From positions 1 to 40,503 of IMG/VR virus record IMGVR_UViG_3300032304_001807: a stretch of DNA of 40,503 bases. One strand, given 5' to 3'. The notes below the pieces were generated by a model that saw only the letters and a program-made list of their open reading frames with translations, searched no databases and was not told the origin of the DNA. Shown piece by piece: positions 4,529 through 26,966 of the stretch; position 1 is the first letter of the stretch, and the number at the start of each line of letters is the position of its first letter. This DNA is from a virus. The position numbers and the translations under genes are program-made.

Positions 4529-5441
4529 GATAGAACTCAAAATAAAAAACTACCAGTCACCTGAAATAAATCACGCTTTTCAAAAAAGCGTTTCTTATTC
4601 TCAGTATTCGCTTTGGGCGTCTTGTCCTCACAAATGGTATCTTACCTATGTAGAAAACAAACAACCATATCAAGCAAGTATACACACCGTATTTGGAACA
4701 GCTTTTCATGAAACACTCCAATCATATATTACAACAATGTATAATGAAAGTGGAGCCGCTGCTGATAAAATGGATTTAGAAACACTATTTCAAGAGCGAT
4801 TTAGAGAAGTATATGCTAAAGAATATCAAGCATCAGGTGCTCATTTCACTGATGCTGCAGAAATGAGTGAATTTTTTGATGACGGTATAGCAATATTAAG
4901 ATGGCTTAAAACAAGGCGAAATAAAATATTTACTATTCGTAAAATGAAATTATTAGGTATAGAATTACCTCTACTCCTAAAATTATCAAACAACATATAC
5001 TACAAAGCATTCATTGACTTTGCATTATACGATGAAGATTTAAATAAAGTTTACATATATGACATCAAAACGTCGACTCGTGGATGGAGTGACAACGAAA
5101 AAAGAGACGATCAAAAAACTGCTCAAGTCTTACTATACAAAGAATATTTCGCAAGACAATACGGGTGGGACGTTGAACAAATTGAAGTCGAATTCTTTAT
5201 CGTTAAGCGCAAAATCTATGAACAAGCTGAATACCCTATTCCCCGGCTTCAGTCATTCAGACCCGCTAGTGGAAAAAACAAGCGAAAACAAGCAATAGAT
5301 AATTTTGAAGCCTTTGTTAAGGATTGCTTTGATGAAGTTGGTAAACCTCAAATAAAGTCGTATCTTAAAAATGTAGGTGAAAATAGTTGTAAGTGGTGTC
5401 CCTATAAAGATAATCAAGAACTTTGCGATAAAATACAATAA
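4506..5441 (+). CDS. PD-(D/E)XK nuclease, RecB/Cas4-like with four-Cys cluster
   Basis: A 311-residue protein from ATG 4506 (a TTG at 4503 is less likely). The motifs in order are H68 in GTAFHETLQ, D171 in IDFALYD, D186-x-K188 in YIYDIKTS, and Q207-x3-Y211 (QVLLY). This is the complete RecB-family nuclease active site (PDDEXK_1). C40 (SCPHKWY) plus C295, C298 and C307 at the C-terminus form the split four-cysteine pattern that holds an Fe-S cluster in Cas4 and AddB nucleases. It is probably a DNA-end-processing exonuclease for recombination or host DNA degradation. It sits at the end of the replication block. Confidence 0.85.
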   Translation: MAKKKYSEIELKIKNYQSPEINHAFQKSVSYSQYSLWASCPHKWYLTYVENKQPYQASIHTVFGTAFHETLQSYITTMYNESGAAADKMDLETLFQERFREVYAKEYQASGAHFTDAAEMSEFFDDGIAILRWLKTRRNKIFTIRKMKLLGIELPLLLKLSNNIYYKAFIDFALYDEDLNKVYIYDIKTSTRGWSDNEKRDDQKTAQVLLYKEYFARQYGWDVEQIEVEFFIVKRKIYEQAEYPIPRLQSFRPASGKNKRKQAIDNFEAFVKDCFDEVGKPQIKSYLKNVGENSCKWCPYKDNQELCDKIQ

Positions 5442-10753: not shown

Positions 10754-11549
10754 TAAATTTTTTAACCCAGAAGAATTTAAAAAAAGTTTATCTGATATAT
10801 CATATACTGATTTTTCTATATTTGTGGATGATATTCCTAAAACACATAATGACTTATCTTCTCTTAATATATTAGTACTAGCTGAACCCAATGAATATTT
10901 TGGCTTACATGAATGGGCAATTCAAAATAAAAACCTATTTTCAGTTATATTAACATGGAGTGATAAAGTATTAAATAACTGTGAAAATGCTATATTTTTA
11001 CCTTTTGGTTCTACATGGTTTAAGCCGGATCAATATGAAAAAAAACATAAAAAAGAATTTAAATTATCTCATTTATCTGGGGTATTATTAAAATCCTATG
11101 GACATCAAATGCGTCATGAAATAATAGAAAGAGAAAATGAATTTAAAATACCTACTAAATTTTACAAAACAATAGGAGATAGACATAATGAAGATGATGC
11201 TAGGATAGGTAAAGAAATTGTATTTAGTAATTCTCAATATGGTGTAGCTATTGAAAATTTTTCACATAGAGGATACTTTAGTGAAAAAATATTAGATTGT
11301 TTCCTAATGAAAACTATTCCTGTTTATAATGGTTGTTCTAATATAGATGATTATTTCAACCCAGAGGGTATTATTATTTTTAAAAATGTAGATGATCTTA
11401 TCTATACAGTTAATAATTTAGATAAAAATTATTATAATTCCCATCAAGATGTAATTGAAAAAAATTATCAAAAATCAATTCAATATATTAATTATAAACA
11501 AAGCATTGTCCAGAAGGTAAAAGAAATATTTAAATTAAATAATTTATGA
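10722..11549 (+). CDS. Glycosyltransferase family 10-like (fucosyltransferase C-terminal fold)
   Basis: A 275-residue protein from ATG 10722; an ATG at 10689 would add 11 residues and a larger overlap with the previous gene. The motif GYFSEKILDCFLMKTIPVYN followed by GCSNIDDYFNPEG matches the GT10/FucT donor motif (Y-x-S/T-E-K-I ... IPVYxG ... YF). The upstream VAIENFSHRGYF strand is also typical. GT10 enzymes transfer fucose or related 6-deoxy-sugars from GDP-sugars. The family call is by motif; the actual donor is unknown. Start overlap with the methyltransferase indicates coupling. Confidence 0.72.
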   Translation: MKDVGSIKIFSKFFNPEEFKKSLSDISYTDFSIFVDDIPKTHNDLSSLNILVLAEPNEYFGLHEWAIQNKNLFSVILTWSDKVLNNCENAIFLPFGSTWFKPDQYEKKHKKEFKLSHLSGVLLKSYGHQMRHEIIERENEFKIPTKFYKTIGDRHNEDDARIGKEIVFSNSQYGVAIENFSHRGYFSEKILDCFLMKTIPVYNGCSNIDDYFNPEGIIIFKNVDDLIYTVNNLDKNYYNSHQDVIEKNYQKSIQYINYKQSIVQKVKEIFKLNNL

Positions 11550-20811: not shown

Positions 20812-21351
20812 ATGGCTGATAAGCGCTCTGATAAGCAATCTCGACTAAGTAGAACCATAACACTAGGAGAAATCAATTCAGAATCAGCCAACGATATAAT
20901 TCAACTAATATACGATATTAATGATGAGGATATTGGAAAAACGCAAGTAGAGCCGATTAGACTAATAATTAATTCATTTGGTGGAGAAGTATACAGTGGA
21001 CTAGCATTAATAGATACAATTGATAACTCATCAACTCCAGTCTATACAATATGCCACGGCTCAGCAATGTCTATGGCTTTAATAGTATATTCTGCGGGTC
21101 ATAATAGATACGCTAGTAGGAATGCTACATTCATGTACCATGAAGCAGCATATCCAATTGAGGGTAAGGTAGCGCATCATAAACAGGAGTTAAAAGAAGT
21201 AGAACGTATTGATAGTATATGTGATAATTATTTATTATCTAAAACATCATTCACTAAAAAACAATTCAATGATGTTAAGAAAACACAAGGAGAATGGTAT
21301 TTTGACATAGAAATAGCACAAGAACACGGGTTAGTAAACGAAATTTTATAA
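20812..21351 (+). CDS. ClpP-like serine protease with Glu in the Asp position
   Basis: A 179-residue ClpP-fold protease. LIINSFGGEVYSGLALIDTI is the oxyanion region, S87 in GSAMSMA is the nucleophile and H110 in MYHEAA the base. Aligning the end GEWYFDIEIAQEHGLVNEIL with E. coli ClpP puts E161 where Asp171 should be, so the triad may be Ser-His-Glu. Length equals host ClpP without a propeptide. Phage ClpP-like proteins often serve as prohead proteases, but no capsid gene is adjacent; it may instead degrade host proteins. It follows a promoter-like motif. Confidence 0.88.
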   Translation: MADKRSDKQSRLSRTITLGEINSESANDIIQLIYDINDEDIGKTQVEPIRLIINSFGGEVYSGLALIDTIDNSSTPVYTICHGSAMSMALIVYSAGHNRYASRNATFMYHEAAYPIEGKVAHHKQELKEVERIDSICDNYLLSKTSFTKKQFNDVKKTQGEWYFDIEIAQEHGLVNEIL

Positions 21352-22420: not shown

Positions 22421-23020
22421 ATGCCTGCTACAAAAACATATAGTCGAGAAGACATTCTGCGCGCAATGCGCTTTACTAAATCAAATCGTGCTGCTGCTCG
22501 CTATTTAGGATGTTCATATCAACATTATAAACCATATGCTAAATTATTTAGACTAGATGAATCCGACCCATCTTCACCTACTTTATTTGATACTCATAAA
22601 AACCAAAGTGGAAGAGGAATCCCAAAATTTCTCCCTAATAAACGAAAAGAACCAAACGTTAAACGTTTATTTGAGGAAGGTATTGGATATGAATCCTTTA
22701 CTCCTGCTAAAATAAAAACAAGAGGTATAGTTGAAGGTTATTTAAAAGATGAATGTTATACTTGTGGTTGTAATGAACGTAGAGTAACTGATTATAAAAC
22801 ACCTACATTATTGAATTTTAAAGATGGTAATAAATCAAATTACTTAATAGATAATTTAGAGATATTATGTTATAATTGTTATTTTTTATACGTAGCTGAT
22901 CCCCTTACTCCTAATGAAGTAAGACATATTGAAGATAATAAAGAAGTACTAGCAGTACAACATGAGTGGGACTTAGATGAAGCCCAATTAGAAAATATGA
23001 AAGCTTTAGGTCTCTTATAA
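22421..23020 (+). CDS. HNH-derived zinc-finger protein with lost catalytic histidines
   Basis: A 199-residue protein. The N-terminus MPATKTYSREDILRAMRFTK then SNRAAARYLGCSYQHYKPYA is a helix-turn-helix of the type found ahead of HNH domains. The finger has CYTC (C112, C115) and CYNC (C150, C153) around TLLNFKDGN and NLEILC. Aligned with the intact HNH protein at 25196, the catalytic His becomes F133 and the last His becomes Y154, while all four zinc cysteines stay. So it is probably a domesticated, non-cleaving DNA-binding protein, for example a regulator. Confidence 0.72.
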   Translation: MPATKTYSREDILRAMRFTKSNRAAARYLGCSYQHYKPYAKLFRLDESDPSSPTLFDTHKNQSGRGIPKFLPNKRKEPNVKRLFEEGIGYESFTPAKIKTRGIVEGYLKDECYTCGCNERRVTDYKTPTLLNFKDGNKSNYLIDNLEILCYNCYFLYVADPLTPNEVRHIEDNKEVLAVQHEWDLDEAQLENMKALGLL

Positions 23021-23050: not shown

Positions 23051-23704
23051 ATGAGAATATGTTCTAAATGTAAAATAGAAAAGGAATTAAATATGTTTCC
23101 TAAAGATAAAAACCAAAGTTTAGGTTATGGATATAAATGTAAATCATGCTGTAAATTAAATAATAAAAATTATTATGATTCAAATAAAGATAAATATTCC
23201 TCTTATTATAATATTAATAAACAAGATAAAGAAGAATATTATAGACAAAATTCTTTAAAATATAATACTATAAATAAAGATAAAGTAAAAGAATACAGAG
23301 ATCAAAATAAAGATTATCATAAAAAGTGGGTTAATAATAAATTAAAAACAGATCCTAAATTTAAAATAAAGCATATTCTTCAAACTAGAATTAATAATGC
23401 TTTAAAAAGCAACAAAACTGAAAAAACCAATGTATTACTAGGAGGAACAATTAGTCAAGTCAAGATTTACCTTGAATCACAATTCAAACCAGAAATGAAC
23501 TGGGATAATCATGGTAATGTGTGGGAGATTGATCATATAGTAGGGTGTGTTAATTTTAATTTAGCTGATATAGAACAACAAAAACAATGTTTTCATTATA
23601 CTAACTTACAACCCCTGTTTAAAACAACAGACATTGCTAAATCTTTAGGTTACAATGAGATAGGAAATAAAAACAAAAAGAAAAGATTGGATCTGGCAAA
23701 ATAA
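23051..23704 (+). CDS. HNH homing endonuclease with N-terminal zinc ribbon
   Basis: A 217-residue protein. C4-x2-C7 and C30-x2-C33 form a zinc ribbon, then a lysine/asparagine-rich helical linker with repeated NKDK-type units (residues 40-95). The nuclease part has KIKHILQTRINNALKS, then VWEIDHIVGCVNF with the D-H catalytic pair, and YTNLQPLFKTTDIAKS supplying the N of HNH. This is the layout of free-standing phage HNH endonucleases. The lower GC and lysine-rich linker fit a mobile gene. No intron is evident around it. Confidence 0.85.
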   Translation: MRICSKCKIEKELNMFPKDKNQSLGYGYKCKSCCKLNNKNYYDSNKDKYSSYYNINKQDKEEYYRQNSLKYNTINKDKVKEYRDQNKDYHKKWVNNKLKTDPKFKIKHILQTRINNALKSNKTEKTNVLLGGTISQVKIYLESQFKPEMNWDNHGNVWEIDHIVGCVNFNLADIEQQKQCFHYTNLQPLFKTTDIAKSLGYNEIGNKNKKKRLDLAK

Positions 23705-24027: not shown

Positions 24028-24267
24028 ATGCAATATTTTCAAGTAAAAGTTCAATTCAGAACCGAAGACGAAAACGGTAAAGTAAAAAAACAAAATGTAG
24101 CCTATTTAGTAGATGCTCAATCAGTAACTGAAGCTGAAGTTAGAACTATAGAATACCTAGCAGCACAGGGTGAAGAAGCATTTGAAGTAAAAGCAGCAGC
24201 CGAGTCAAAAATATTTGAAGTAATTCGACATGAAAATTCAGGAATTGATGAATTAGTAGAATTGTAG
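24028..24267 (+). CDS. Small conserved protein of unknown function
   Basis: A 79-residue protein with alternating beta strands (MQYFQVKVQFRT, QNVAYLVDAQSVTEAEVRTI) and a helix, a layout seen in small phage proteins of the ferredoxin-like type. The N-terminal strand and the EAEVRTIEYLA helix suggest a compact fold. Its stop codon lies inside the first acceptor strand of the following tRNA-like module. Function unknown. Confidence 0.65.
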   Translation: MQYFQVKVQFRTEDENGKVKKQNVAYLVDAQSVTEAEVRTIEYLAAQGEEAFEVKAAAESKIFEVIRHENSGIDELVEL

Positions 24268-24419
24268 AGTGGTGGAAAAGCGTACGCTGTGGCAGACATA
24301 TCCGCTCGTCTAGCGGATGCAGAAAACGAGAAAGATAAATAATATGGGTTGACCACAAAGCCGGCTTATTTTGTTATTTATTGAATCGCTGCGTGAAGGT
24401 TCGACTCCTTCCTCTACAG
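24263..24419 (+). ncRNA. tRNA-like module 1 (expanded, no canonical anticodon arm)
   Basis: Acceptor strands TGTAGAG (24263-24269) and CTCTACA (24412-24418) pair fully. T8 and G9 follow, then a D-arm-like part. A perfect T arm GAAGG/CCTTC (24395-99/24407-11) with loop TTCGACT precedes the 3' acceptor. Between lie about 120 nt, where a tRNA needs about 40: TGTGG/CCACA (24288-92/24353-57) encloses a hairpin ATCCGCT/AGCGGAT (24300-06/24312-18). No 7-nt loop with U33 and a believable anticodon is seen. Discriminator position is G and CCA is not encoded. It could be a tRNA with an insertion or a tRNA-shaped domain of a longer RNA. Confidence 0.55.
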
Positions 24420-24650
24420 CACAAGCCCACAGGCCATGGGATCGAAAACTCAGGAACGCCTCTCAGAATAGAGTTCACTCTTGCACAGGCGCACCAATCC
24501 TCTGAATCGTTAGTCAGCGGTGTAAAGCAACCCCACTGGAGAATAGGGTTGTAAATAAGGTTGATTGGGATGAATGCAGGTGCATCGCCGGTTAGTAAAG
24601 CCAATCATAAAAGTAGATGTCCACGCACCCATCTTCTGCTTTCCTAATGT

Positions 24651-24774
24651 GGTCAGGTGGCGGAATGGAGACGCAAAAAACTGGAATGTGGTAGGTCGAA
24701 CCACACTGTAAACAAAAAAGACAATAACGCAGCAGTGCGGAAGCTAATTGAAGGTTCGACTCCTTCCCTGACTA
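24651..24774 (+). ncRNA. tRNA-like module 2 (Leu-type D arm, no anticodon arm)
   Basis: GGTCAGG (24651-57) pairs with CCTGACT (24767-73, one G-U). T8 and a D arm GCG/CGC (24660-62/24672-74) with a GGAATGG-type loop resemble leucine tRNAs. T arm GAAGG/CCTTC with loop TTCGACT (24755-61) is perfect. The centre is 75 nt and holds TGTGGT/ACCACA (24687-92/24700-05) with a 7-nt loop AGGTCGA that lacks U33, and a small CGCA/TGCG hairpin like a variable arm. No anticodon is assignable. The T-arm sequence is nearly the same as in module 1. Confidence 0.55.
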
Positions 24775-24835
24775 CAACCCGTCGGAAGCTCATCATGGCC
24801 CGAGTGAGATGAAAACGCGGATATCGGGCCTATAT

Positions 24836-24939
24836 AGTCAGGTGGCGGAATTGGTAGACGCAACGACAAGTGTCAAAATGGGGCGATATTAATAGGAGTC
24901 CAAGTATATGACATACAGGTTCGAATCCTGTCCTGACTA
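24836..24939 (+). ncRNA. tRNA-like module 3 (Leu-type D arm, no anticodon arm)
   Basis: AGTCAGG (24836-42) pairs with CCTGACT (24932-38) followed by A73. T8, G9 and a D arm with loop GAATTGGTAGA match leucine tRNAs well, and the T arm ACAGG/CCTGT with TTCGAAT is canonical. The 53-nt centre cannot form a normal anticodon stem next to the D arm; the best pairing is TGTCA/TGACA (24871-75/24909-13). A standard tRNA search may call it a leucine tRNA or pseudogene. The acceptor stem is nearly the same as that of module 2. Confidence 0.55.
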
Positions 24940-25065
24940 CTGACACGCACGGCAACCTGGAATTGGTGCATCATGAACAGGTAATGCGAGCAAACATGGA
25001 GAATACCTCACTGTGCGTAGGTAAGCATCAAGTTCTTCTGACTGTGGGGAATAGACCCACTCTTA

Positions 25066-25149
25066 GCCGGGGTGTTGAAATGGTAGACAAGAAGCACTTA
25101 AAATGCTTTGAGCTGAAAGCTCGTGCGGGTTCGAGTCCCGCTCCCGGTA
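25066..25149 (+). tRNA. tRNA-Leu(UAA)
   Basis: A complete class II tRNA. Acceptor GCCGGGG (25066-72) pairs with TCCCGGT (25142-48), with G-U pairs at 1-72 and 7-66. The D loop has GAAATGGTAGA. The anticodon stem AAGCA/TGCTT encloses CTTAAAA with anticodon TAA. The long variable arm GAGCT-GAA-AGCTC and T arm GCGGG/CCCGC with TTCGAGT are canonical. A73 is the discriminator, as required for leucine. CCA is not encoded. It reads UUA, a codon common in this AT-rich genome. Confidence 0.93.
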
Positions 25150-25182
25150 CATATTTAGGTTTATTGGTCTTGTATGTTTACA

Positions 25183-25195: not shown

Positions 25196-25660
25196 ATGAA
25201 ACAATATAACACTAAAAAACCAAACAGTTGGGAAAAATCGGGTATTAAACCTAAAAATATCCCACAACAAGAGTTCATTGATATATGTAATAGTAGTGAA
25301 TCTATGGCACATGCTGCTTCTAAATTAGGATTACACTTTACTACTTTTAAAAAGTATGCTATAAATTATGGTTGTTATAATACTAATCAATCTGGTTTAG
25401 GTACTAAGAAAAATAAAGGCAATATTTTAGAAATAAATAAAATATCCAGTAGAGCAGGGATGAGAAACCGTATAATTAAAGAAAATCTTATCCCCTATAA
25501 GTGTAGTGAGTGTGAAATATCAGAGTGGAAAGGCCAAAAACTATCATTACATTTAGATCACATTAACGGTAATGCCTGGAACCATGAATTATCTAATTTA
25601 AGGTTTCTTTGTCCTAATTGTCATTCCTTAACTGATACGTATACGGGAAAAAATAAGTAA
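25196..25660 (+). CDS. HNH homing endonuclease
   Basis: A 154-residue protein. The N-terminal helix-turn-helix (residues 23-60, SMAHAASKLGLHFTTFKKYA) binds DNA, and the HNH domain is intact: CSEC (C103, C106), LHLDHINGN (D121, H122, N126), FLCPNCHSL (C139, C142, H143). The HNH motif with four zinc cysteines is typical of phage homing endonucleases that cut at conserved sites such as tRNA genes. It is inserted directly after tRNA-Leu. It is the intact relative of the degenerate protein at 22421. Confidence 0.9.
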   Translation: MKQYNTKKPNSWEKSGIKPKNIPQQEFIDICNSSESMAHAASKLGLHFTTFKKYAINYGCYNTNQSGLGTKKNKGNILEINKISSRAGMRNRIIKENLIPYKCSECEISEWKGQKLSLHLDHINGNAWNHELSNLRFLCPNCHSLTDTYTGKNK

Positions 25661-25993: not shown

Positions 25994-26065
25994 TGCGAGG
26001 TGGAGAAATGGTAACTCATTGGGCTCATAACCCAAAGAATGGTGGTTCGATTCCATCCCTCGCAT
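25994..26065 (+). tRNA. Initiator-type tRNA-Met(CAU)
   Basis: A complete cloverleaf: acceptor TGCGAGG/CCTCGCA (25994-26000/26058-64), T8, D stem GAG/CTC with A11-T24, anticodon stem TTGGG/CCCAA around CTCATAA, and T arm GGTGG/CCATC with TTCGATT. The three consecutive G-C pairs 29-31/39-41, A11-U24 and the acceptor G2-C71, C3-G70, G4-C69 are those of bacterial tRNA-fMet. The 1-72 pair is T-A, weak, instead of the C x A mismatch. The discriminator is T (26065) rather than A. CCA is not encoded. Confidence 0.88.
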
Positions 26066-26085
26066 CTAAAAGTTCTTTAACATAT

Positions 26086-26468
26086 GGGGATAACATGGTA
26101 TCGATTCGAATGTTGAGATAATACTACATGCAGGCGTTTGGTAGAGTCGCCTTAAAAAACTGCAAACAATAACTGACGAAATGTCAACTATGACCTTCAA
26201 CGACCTTATGACGTTTGTAGGCGCCGACTACGCTTTAGCAGCCTAGTCCGCATCGGGTGTGGAATAACCTAGGAACAGAATACCACCGAGCGCTCACAAT
26301 CGACTCGCTAAATAAGGACTGTGGATTAGTTTCTTGATGTCATAAATCAAGTGGTGGAAACGACCATAACGGTCAGCCCTACTGATCAGATTTATTCAGA
26401 TCTAAGCATGTGAAACGTTAGTATTATTGTCGCTTTCGAAGACAGGGGTTCGATCCCCCTTATCTCCA
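26086..26468 (+). ncRNA. ssrA: Transfer-messenger RNA (tmRNA, SsrA)
   Basis: GGGGATA (26086-92) pairs with TATCTCC (26461-67), followed by A. The T arm AGGGG/CCCCT with loop TTCGATC and the 3' end ACAGGGGTTCGATCCCC are typical of tmRNA. The tag ends GAC-TAC-GCT-TTA-GCA-GCC-TAG (26226-26246), giving DYALAA. The stretch CAAACAATAACT just before the frame is the Bacteroidota-like resume context, with A at -4. From GAC at 26175 the tag is 23 codons; from GGC at 26220 it would be 8 (GADYALAA). It rescues stalled ribosomes by trans-translation. Confidence 0.93.
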
Positions 26469-26469
26469 C
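26461..26469 (+). repeat. Direct repeat TATCTCCAC, copy 1 (tmRNA 3' end)
   Basis: TATCTCCAC is the last acceptor strand of the tmRNA plus the discriminator and one base. An identical copy lies at 26980-26988, on the far side of the HNH gene. The next bases (ATATCTCC versus TATTTCTC) are also similar. Confidence 0.5.
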
Positions 26470-26488
26470 ATATCTCCCCCCTTCTTGA

Positions 26489-26497
26489 TATATTTAT
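26489..26497 (+). promoter_or_regulatory. TATATTTAT promoter-like motif
   Basis: TATATTTAT 13 nt upstream of the HNH gene at 26511, in the short gap after tmRNA. Same motif as before the other two HNH genes. Confidence 0.48.
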
Positions 26498-26510
26498 TGT
26501 AAATAACAAT

Positions 26511-26966
26511 ATGAAATCAAGAACTAAGGAGTATTATACTGAGTATTATGAGCAAAATAAAGATGCTCATAATGCTCGGTCTGTTGAGTGGCAATCTAAA
26601 AATAAAGATAAAGCTAAAGAGTCTGTTAAAAAATACCAAGAAAAAAATATTGATAAAGTAAGAGAATGGGATCGATTACAAAAACAAAAACAAAGACAAG
26701 AACGTAGACAATTTATAGATGAATGTAAATCTACTTGTAGTTGTAAAAAATGTGGTGATGTTAGACCCTATATATTAGATTTTCATCATATTGATCCTAA
26801 TGAAAAGGAATTTGATTTAGGTGAGGCTAGTAAATATAGTATAACTAGATTAAAAATAGAATTAGAAAAATGCATTACTTTATGTCGTAATTGTCATAGT
26901 GAGTTCCATTTTCTTGAAAAAAAACAAAACATAACTATTGAAAAATATTTATATTTAGGAATGTAA
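26511..26966 (+). CDS. HNH homing endonuclease
   Basis: A 151-residue protein from ATG 26511; an earlier in-frame ATG at 26427 lies inside the tmRNA. The N-terminal half is a charged helical linker (residues 1-70, repeated NKDK units). The nuclease domain has C78-x2-C81, DFHHIDPNEKEF (H92, H93), CITLCRNCHSEFH (C125, C128, H129). It directly follows tmRNA. A 9-bp copy of the tmRNA 3' end lies 14 nt beyond its stop, hinting at insertion there. Confidence 0.87.
   Translation: MKSRTKEYYTEYYEQNKDAHNARSVEWQSKNKDKAKESVKKYQEKNIDKVREWDRLQKQKQRQERRQFIDECKSTCSCKKCGDVRPYILDFHHIDPNEKEFDLGEASKYSITRLKIELEKCITLCRNCHSEFHFLEKKQNITIEKYLYLGM

Follow-up and report, generated by a model that had tools for sequence, protein, structure and literature searches.

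A predicted cassette of seven small structured RNAs, some of them built as tRNA shells, in the tRNA/tmRNA island of a Bacteroidota phage

The block at positions 24263–25063 of the viral record IMGVR_UViG_3300032304_001807 (the whole stretch of 40,503 nucleotides that was analysed is called the window below) resolves, on sequence comparison, into seven separate small RNAs (A, B, C, M2, S, M3 and G), all on the plus strand. Together they form a cassette within the tRNA/tmRNA island of a Bacteroidota phage. The best explanation of the whole, which we regard as reasonably probable, is that separate units are combined here, with tRNA-processed shells, exchangeable effector cores and a dimerising unit A that can be charged by AspRS. 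An initial annotation had read the block as one structured RNA of about 800 nt, either of the GOLLD/ROOL type or new; an undescribed structured phage RNA is indeed what is found, whereas GOLLD and ROOL are excluded at the sensitivity of the Rfam models and a single RNA of about 800 nt is not supported.

The RNA block and its relatives

The limits of the block were correctly placed from the start: the acceptor stem of the first tRNA-like module opens at position 24263, and shortly after 25063 follows an ordinary tRNA-Leu(taa) (25066–25150, plus strand, ARAGORN-type tRNA call) that closes the cassette. The GC content is 0.47–0.50 inside vs about 0.25–0.33 outside, no credible open reading frame is present (the longest encodes about 76–79 aa), and the only overlap with a protein gene consists of the last 5 nt of a DUF4494 gene (24028–24267, plus strand), whose stop codon at 24267 falls within the acceptor stem of unit A. 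The three tRNA-like modules that had been noticed are real: those at 24651–24774 (M2) and 24836–24939 (M3) score at or above the level of the Rfam tRNA model, the one at 24263–24419 (A) is supported by covariation, and all three have the acceptor, D and T arms of the cloverleaf. Such a repetition of tRNA-like domains is unusual, as was remarked at the outset.

Downstream in the same island, all on the plus strand, are a small HNH endonuclease-like gene (25196–25660; Pfam HNH, E = 0.00099, just under the curated cut-off), an ordinary tRNA-Met(cat) (25994–26066, tRNA call) and a phage tmRNA with the tag DEMSTMTFNDLMTFVGADYALAA (26086–26469, tRNA/tmRNA call and Rfam search). The HNH-like gene is a candidate free-standing homing endonuclease that may spread the region. 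Small HNH-like genes are also seen around the RNA island at 22421–23020, 23051–23704 and 26427–26966, and only the one at 25196–25660 has a (weak) Pfam match; tmRNAs are present in most related contigs too. Elsewhere, the window contains a phage GroEL-like chaperonin (555–2180), 58% identical to that of Flavobacterium phage immuto, and a ClpP-like protease (20812–21351).

Predicted folding energy was uninformative: the whole block folded no better than shuffles (z +0.95), and neither did most of the single units, with the exceptions of A (z −2.0) and M3 (z −1.8). Comparative evidence was therefore used instead, and it bears out the structured RNA that the many stems had been taken to indicate, whereas the counting of stems is no evidence by itself. 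No promoter or terminator signals above shuffles were detected. Relatives were gathered via the two genes that flank the block, independently of the block itself. BLAST of the block located its pieces in relatives among ordinary tRNAs, either singly or with changed spacing or order. Among 52 contigs retrieved via the upstream gene, simple motifs identified unit A in 20, unit C in 11, an AGUCAGG-type shell in 8, G in 6, S in 4 and B in 3, and at least one unit was present in 24 of the 28 closest relatives. Because the units move independently, a single transcript unit of about 800 nt, as first proposed, is not supported. Covariation among homologs was found for units A and G. Rfam holds no family for any of the seven units except the generic tRNA (M2 and M3), other matches being at chance level; relatives of A, C, G and the M3 shell were absent from the INPHARED phages, and Flavobacterium phage immuto, the nearest cultured phage by GroEL, is without unit A.

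Unit A in phages and in bacterial chromosomes

Unit A (24263–24419, 157 nt) is a tRNA-like RNA supported by 51 phage copies, covariation and 66 chromosomal relatives, and was missed by ARAGORN and by the Rfam tRNA model. It has the acceptor TGTAGAG/CTCTACA, G73, a hairpin inserted in the D-loop, a T-arm, an anticodon-like arm (24301–24317, loop TCGTCTA) and a domain of about 75 nt that replaces the variable loop. According to loop tallies in phage and chromosomal copies, the anticodon-like 7-nt loop (24306–24312) contains the core CGUCU, which is the loop core in nearly all phage copies; its GUC at positions 34–36 corresponds to 24308–24310 and is followed by U37. The segment 24346–24367 comprises the near-invariant GGGUUGACCAC (24346–24356) and then the perfect palindrome AAGCCGGCUU (24358–24367). 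A broad search pattern mixed true copies with chance matches, and only full-element copies were kept, resulting in an alignment of 51 non-redundant phage copies. In 36 copies laid on a hand-written cloverleaf with the extra domain, 97.6% of the cells of 37 pairs were paired, and double-change cells numbered 197 vs 56 in shuffles, with none of 500 shuffles as high. This signal was gone when the partners were slid, and compensated changes were seen in the helices of the acceptor, of the D, anticodon-like and T arms and of the variable domain alike.

Of the 51 phage copies, 50 contain a perfect palindrome that is 8 nt or longer, vs about 4.5% of segment shuffles, and it took about ten different sequences (AGCCGGCU, UAGCGCGCUA, GCUAGCUAGC, GUGCGCAC, GCUGCAGC, GCUUGCAAGC, CGCCGGCG, GCGCGCGC, GCUCGAGC and others). 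Because self-complementarity persists while the sequence changes, loop–loop dimers are suggested, with the palindromic loop of phage unit A as the candidate kissing-dimer contact; the retroviral dimerisation site is a known parallel. Unit A, through this conserved loop, is the only unit for which multimerisation is plausible. The D-loop hairpin was rejected as a possible second palindromic contact, since several copies are not palindromic.

The main aspartate identity determinants are G73, G34, U35, C36 and C38 (PMC9976931). G73 was found in 49 of 51 phage and in 66 of 66 chromosomal copies of unit A, GUC at 34–36 is almost always kept in the family, and C38 occurs in all 66 chromosomal copies and in 30 of 36 aligned phage copies; the copy in the window has A38 and the other four main determinants. 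The chromosomal copies do not retain G10, which is a weaker determinant for aspartate in bacteria. We infer that unit A is a relative of tRNA-Asp that can be charged by AspRS. Charging by SerRS instead is rather improbable: G73 and a long variable region are both serine determinants in bacteria (PMC9976931), but the conservation of GUC and C38 would be needless for SerRS, and in the tRNAs of these phages the combination of G73, GUC and C38 means Asp. As for decoding, the copy in the window has the arm but carries C33 and U37, and because U33 and a purine at 37, both typical of decoding tRNAs, are not kept in the family, unit A probably does not decode. Position 37 is the sole difference between the chromosomal loop CUGUCUC and the loop CUGUCAC of a phage tRNA-Asp.

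With the covariance model of phage unit A, relatives were identified at E 1e-12 in 30 of 296 Bacteroidota genomes, amounting to 43 copies in 30 loci. Their structure is as in the phages, with 222 double-change cells vs 60 in shuffles in an alignment that was fitted to the model and hence leans towards it. With a model made from the chromosomal copies, true copies scored at least 81 bits and ordinary tRNAs at most 65 bits in searches of the phylum and the family. Relatives were present in 39 of 395 Bacteroidota genomes (counted at E 1e-19 or better) and in 71 of 99 Chitinophagaceae (the family of a Sediminibacterium genome). None were found in 100 Flavobacteriaceae (the family of a Flavobacterium genome) or in 200 Pseudomonadota (the phylum of a Neisseriaceae genome), an absence that holds at the sensitivity of the stricter filters with which the large genome searches were run. 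In six chromosomal loci the element had no Rfam match, and ARAGORN made no call in ten.

A gene of the Lrp/AsnC family (Pfam) adjoins chromosomal unit A in 20 of the 30 first loci, 10 being without it, and in 18 of 20 further Chitinophagaceae loci, where one miss lies at a contig end; in the loci inspected this gene is divergent from unit A. This AsnC-type neighbour hints at amino-acid-linked control. No AsnC relatives were found in the phage unit A loci. As read by eye from the sequence, chromosomal relatives lie near an ArfB-like gene in two loci (L580, L583), and two tandem relatives are found beside frr (ribosome recycling factor) and pyrH in two others (L558, L559). Further chromosomal relatives are located near RluD-like genes (L575, L581) or an Obg-like gene (L572).

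tRNA shells, their cores and the remaining units

In unit M3 (24836–24939; 39.4 bits with the Rfam tRNA model in a narrower search) a shell AGUCAGG...CCUGACUA surrounds a core closed by GUGUCA/UGACAU, the layout being AGUCAGG U GGCGGAAUUGGUAGACGC, core, ACAGGUUCGAAUCCUGU CCUGACU A. Unit M2 (24651–24774; 34.7 bits with the same model in the whole-window search) combines the shell GGUCAGG...CCUGACUA, which is of the M3 type with G1 and has a T-arm resembling that of A, with a non-anticodon core, for which no close relatives were found. An anticodon arm was detected in neither unit by ARAGORN or the shell test. By its predicted structure M3 is a member of a phage class in which a tRNA shell encloses a non-tRNA core, and M2 probably belongs to the same class. 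A normal anticodon arm was present in 2 of 244 distinct AGUCAGG-type shells, in a census that comes from one exact 24-mer scan and thus over-represents that acceptor and T-arm; however, 8 of the 52 contigs, which had been reached without the 24-mer, also carry shells of this type. The exact 24-base pattern for the 3' end of M3 occurred in at least 119 stretches of viral contigs and in only 10 stretches of 84,980 bacterial and archaeal genomes, and a structural shell scanner had no hits when run on 3.2 Mb of shuffled DNA. A wider set of tRNA shells, which includes ordinary tRNA-Leu genes, fell into 209 core clusters, most of them single, and its cores folded somewhat better than shuffles (mean z −0.78 ± 0.08, 158 cores).

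Unit G (24941–25060) is a pseudoknotted domain that stands free in the window with a 3' hairpin. In an alignment of 41 copies, double-change cells numbered 136 vs 38 in shuffles (0 of 500 as high). The pairing ACGCAC/GUGCGU crosses the covarying helices and is invariant, which precludes a covariation signal for the pseudoknot. Elsewhere (L472, L463) G is also free, with its own closing helix, and it occurs inside complete tRNA shells with the acceptors AGTCAGG, GGTTGGG, AGCCATG and TGTCAGA; as these differ yet stay paired, the shell changes by compensation. Since G is seen both free and shelled, one and the same RNA domain is used either way, and in the shelled copies the anticodon arm is replaced by an RNA domain that is autonomous. 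G was not found in the 296 Bacteroidota genomes.

Unit C (24559–24648) consists of the helix GAUUGG/CCAAUC, a variable arm and then the hairpin AAAGUAGAUG-UCCACGCACC-CAUCUUCUGCUUU; it occurs in at least 119 viral stretches, and among 47 non-redundant copies 18 sequences have a double change at one pair. Unit B (24424–24551) contains the hairpins CUGA(AUCGUUAG)UCAG and GCAACCC...GGGUUGU and was found in eight contigs by pattern, with compensated changes in four aligned copies. Unit S (24776–24831) is an H-type pseudoknot in which CUCA/UGAG is crossed with GGCCCGA/UCGGGCC; in seven aligned copies CUCA/UGAG, CACA/UGUG and CGAA/UUCG compensate, as read by eye. By these comparisons C and, on fewer copies, B and S are further predicted structured units.

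In the mechanism that we propose, the RNA island would be transcribed as a precursor, from which the tRNA-shelled RNAs would be released by RNase P and 3' tRNA processing. The shell may protect the core, as an artificial tRNA scaffold does, and the cores would be exchangeable functional RNAs, most likely directed against host functions or defences. Phage unit A would pair with itself through its palindromic loop and could supply or mimic the host RNA during infection.

Alternative explanations and known systems

One large RNA of about 800 nt of the GOLLD/ROOL kind, with the tRNA-like domains as its parts, would fit the length, the tRNA island and the high GC content, which are as in GOLLD and ROOL (PMC12286853), and GOLLD is carried by two related contigs. 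It is nevertheless very improbable, since the Rfam covariance models of GOLLD (RF02032) and ROOL gave no match in the block even at permissive thresholds, the units are single or reordered in relatives, and the block as a whole folds no better than shuffles. The GOLLD model does work on relatives, with 262 bits at 10893–11310 of L021 and 255 bits at 5087–5512 of L023; these are the two positives among 19 related loci scanned, and both also carry unit A and shell RNAs, elsewhere in the contig. A set of decaying tRNA pseudogenes, in which the anticodon arms degenerated or were hit by insertions, would account for tRNA-like acceptor, D and T arms around a non-tRNA centre. For unit A and domain G this is refuted by covariation, with compensatory changes across the 51 phage copies of unit A, whose loop and palindrome are conserved and which is also conserved in Chitinophagaceae chromosomes; as the AGUCAGG shell, too, almost never has a normal anticodon arm, decay has a very low probability as an explanation of the block.

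Ordinary tRNAs interrupted by introns, an alternative named in the initial annotation, are not what is seen either. The extra sequence does sit at the place of the anticodon arm, but Rfam searches gave no group I or group II intron match, only 2 of 244 shells have a normal anticodon arm where one would be expected, G exists without a tRNA shell, and the cores, at about 20–140 nt, are shorter than self-splicing introns, which makes this reading extremely improbable. It is conceivable, though on balance unlikely, that the shelled RNAs are decoys for tRNA-cleaving defences (Septu, retron-Eco7, PARIS, OLD), with centres made hypervariable by an arms race and with the small HNH endonucleases of the island helping to amplify or spread it. 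Phages do use tRNAs against tRNA-cleaving defences, and in T6 a locus of this kind is amplified by a homing endonuclease (PMC13096335); moreover, the cores are extremely diverse between phages and an HNH-like gene lies in the island. Most cores, however, contain neither an anticodon nor a variable loop that looks like a tRNA target, and the occurrence of G also outside a shell points to the core as the active part.

GOLLD and ROOL are located in phage tRNA islands (PMC12286853), and the cassette resembles them as structured non-coding phage RNA in such islands, possibly with self-association (unit A), but differs in lacking any sequence or structure match and in consisting of seven small independent units. 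The artificial tRNA scaffold retains the acceptor, D and T arms of a tRNA and carries an insert in place of the anticodon arm (PMC3753655). The phage shells likewise keep the three arms and hold a structured RNA insert at the anticodon arm, but they are natural, with more than 100 different cores, and their processing and protection are predicted. The pseudo-tRNA tRNAOther of Bacillus cereus is chromosomal and reported to be non-functional in translation (PMC3399842); it is, like chromosomal unit A, a tRNA-like RNA, whereas unit A is a family that covers multiple species, possesses a large additional domain and an aspartate-type loop, adjoins an AsnC-type gene and has phage-borne relatives. 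With tmRNA the units share the island and tRNA-like ends around a large non-tRNA centre, but they have no reading frame or tag, and the tmRNA model matches only 26086–26469. The defence-countering tRNAs of phages are, like the shells, tRNA-type genes adjoining homing-endonuclease-like genes; they are complete decoding tRNAs, whereas in the shells the anticodon arm is missing or replaced.

Several of the RNA families described here are absent from Rfam 15 and the searched literature, with strong covariation for A and G, and the principle of natural tRNA shells that carry unrelated structured RNAs, in hundreds of variants, is new to the sources searched: in a largely open-access body of literature, no paper was found that describes either natural tRNA shells in which the cores are exchangeable or an AsnC-linked tRNA-like RNA in Bacteroidota. 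Possibly, though we advance this only tentatively, Bacteroidota phages have turned a natural tRNA scaffold into a large exchangeable repertoire of RNA effectors for the control of host translation or of RNA-based defence; one of these would be a non-decoding tRNA that bears a palindrome, is charged by AspRS and is akin to the AsnC-linked chromosomal RNA of Chitinophagaceae. As chromosomal unit A adjoins an Lrp/AsnC regulator in most of the Chitinophagaceae loci that were examined, its function can be tested directly, and the questions are whether a non-decoding aspartyl-tRNA has a regulatory or metabolic job and why phages carry versions of it. Since these genes escape a standard tRNA finder, further ones may be present in many phage genomes. 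The densest array seen comprises about 16 shell elements in 6 kb (16.2–22.5 kb of the 62-kb contig of L221). One recurring shell core, GAGTGGACAGCGTGCCATTGGGGAAG...AAAGTTACGCA, forms a family of its own (L255, L275, L285, L317 and L326).
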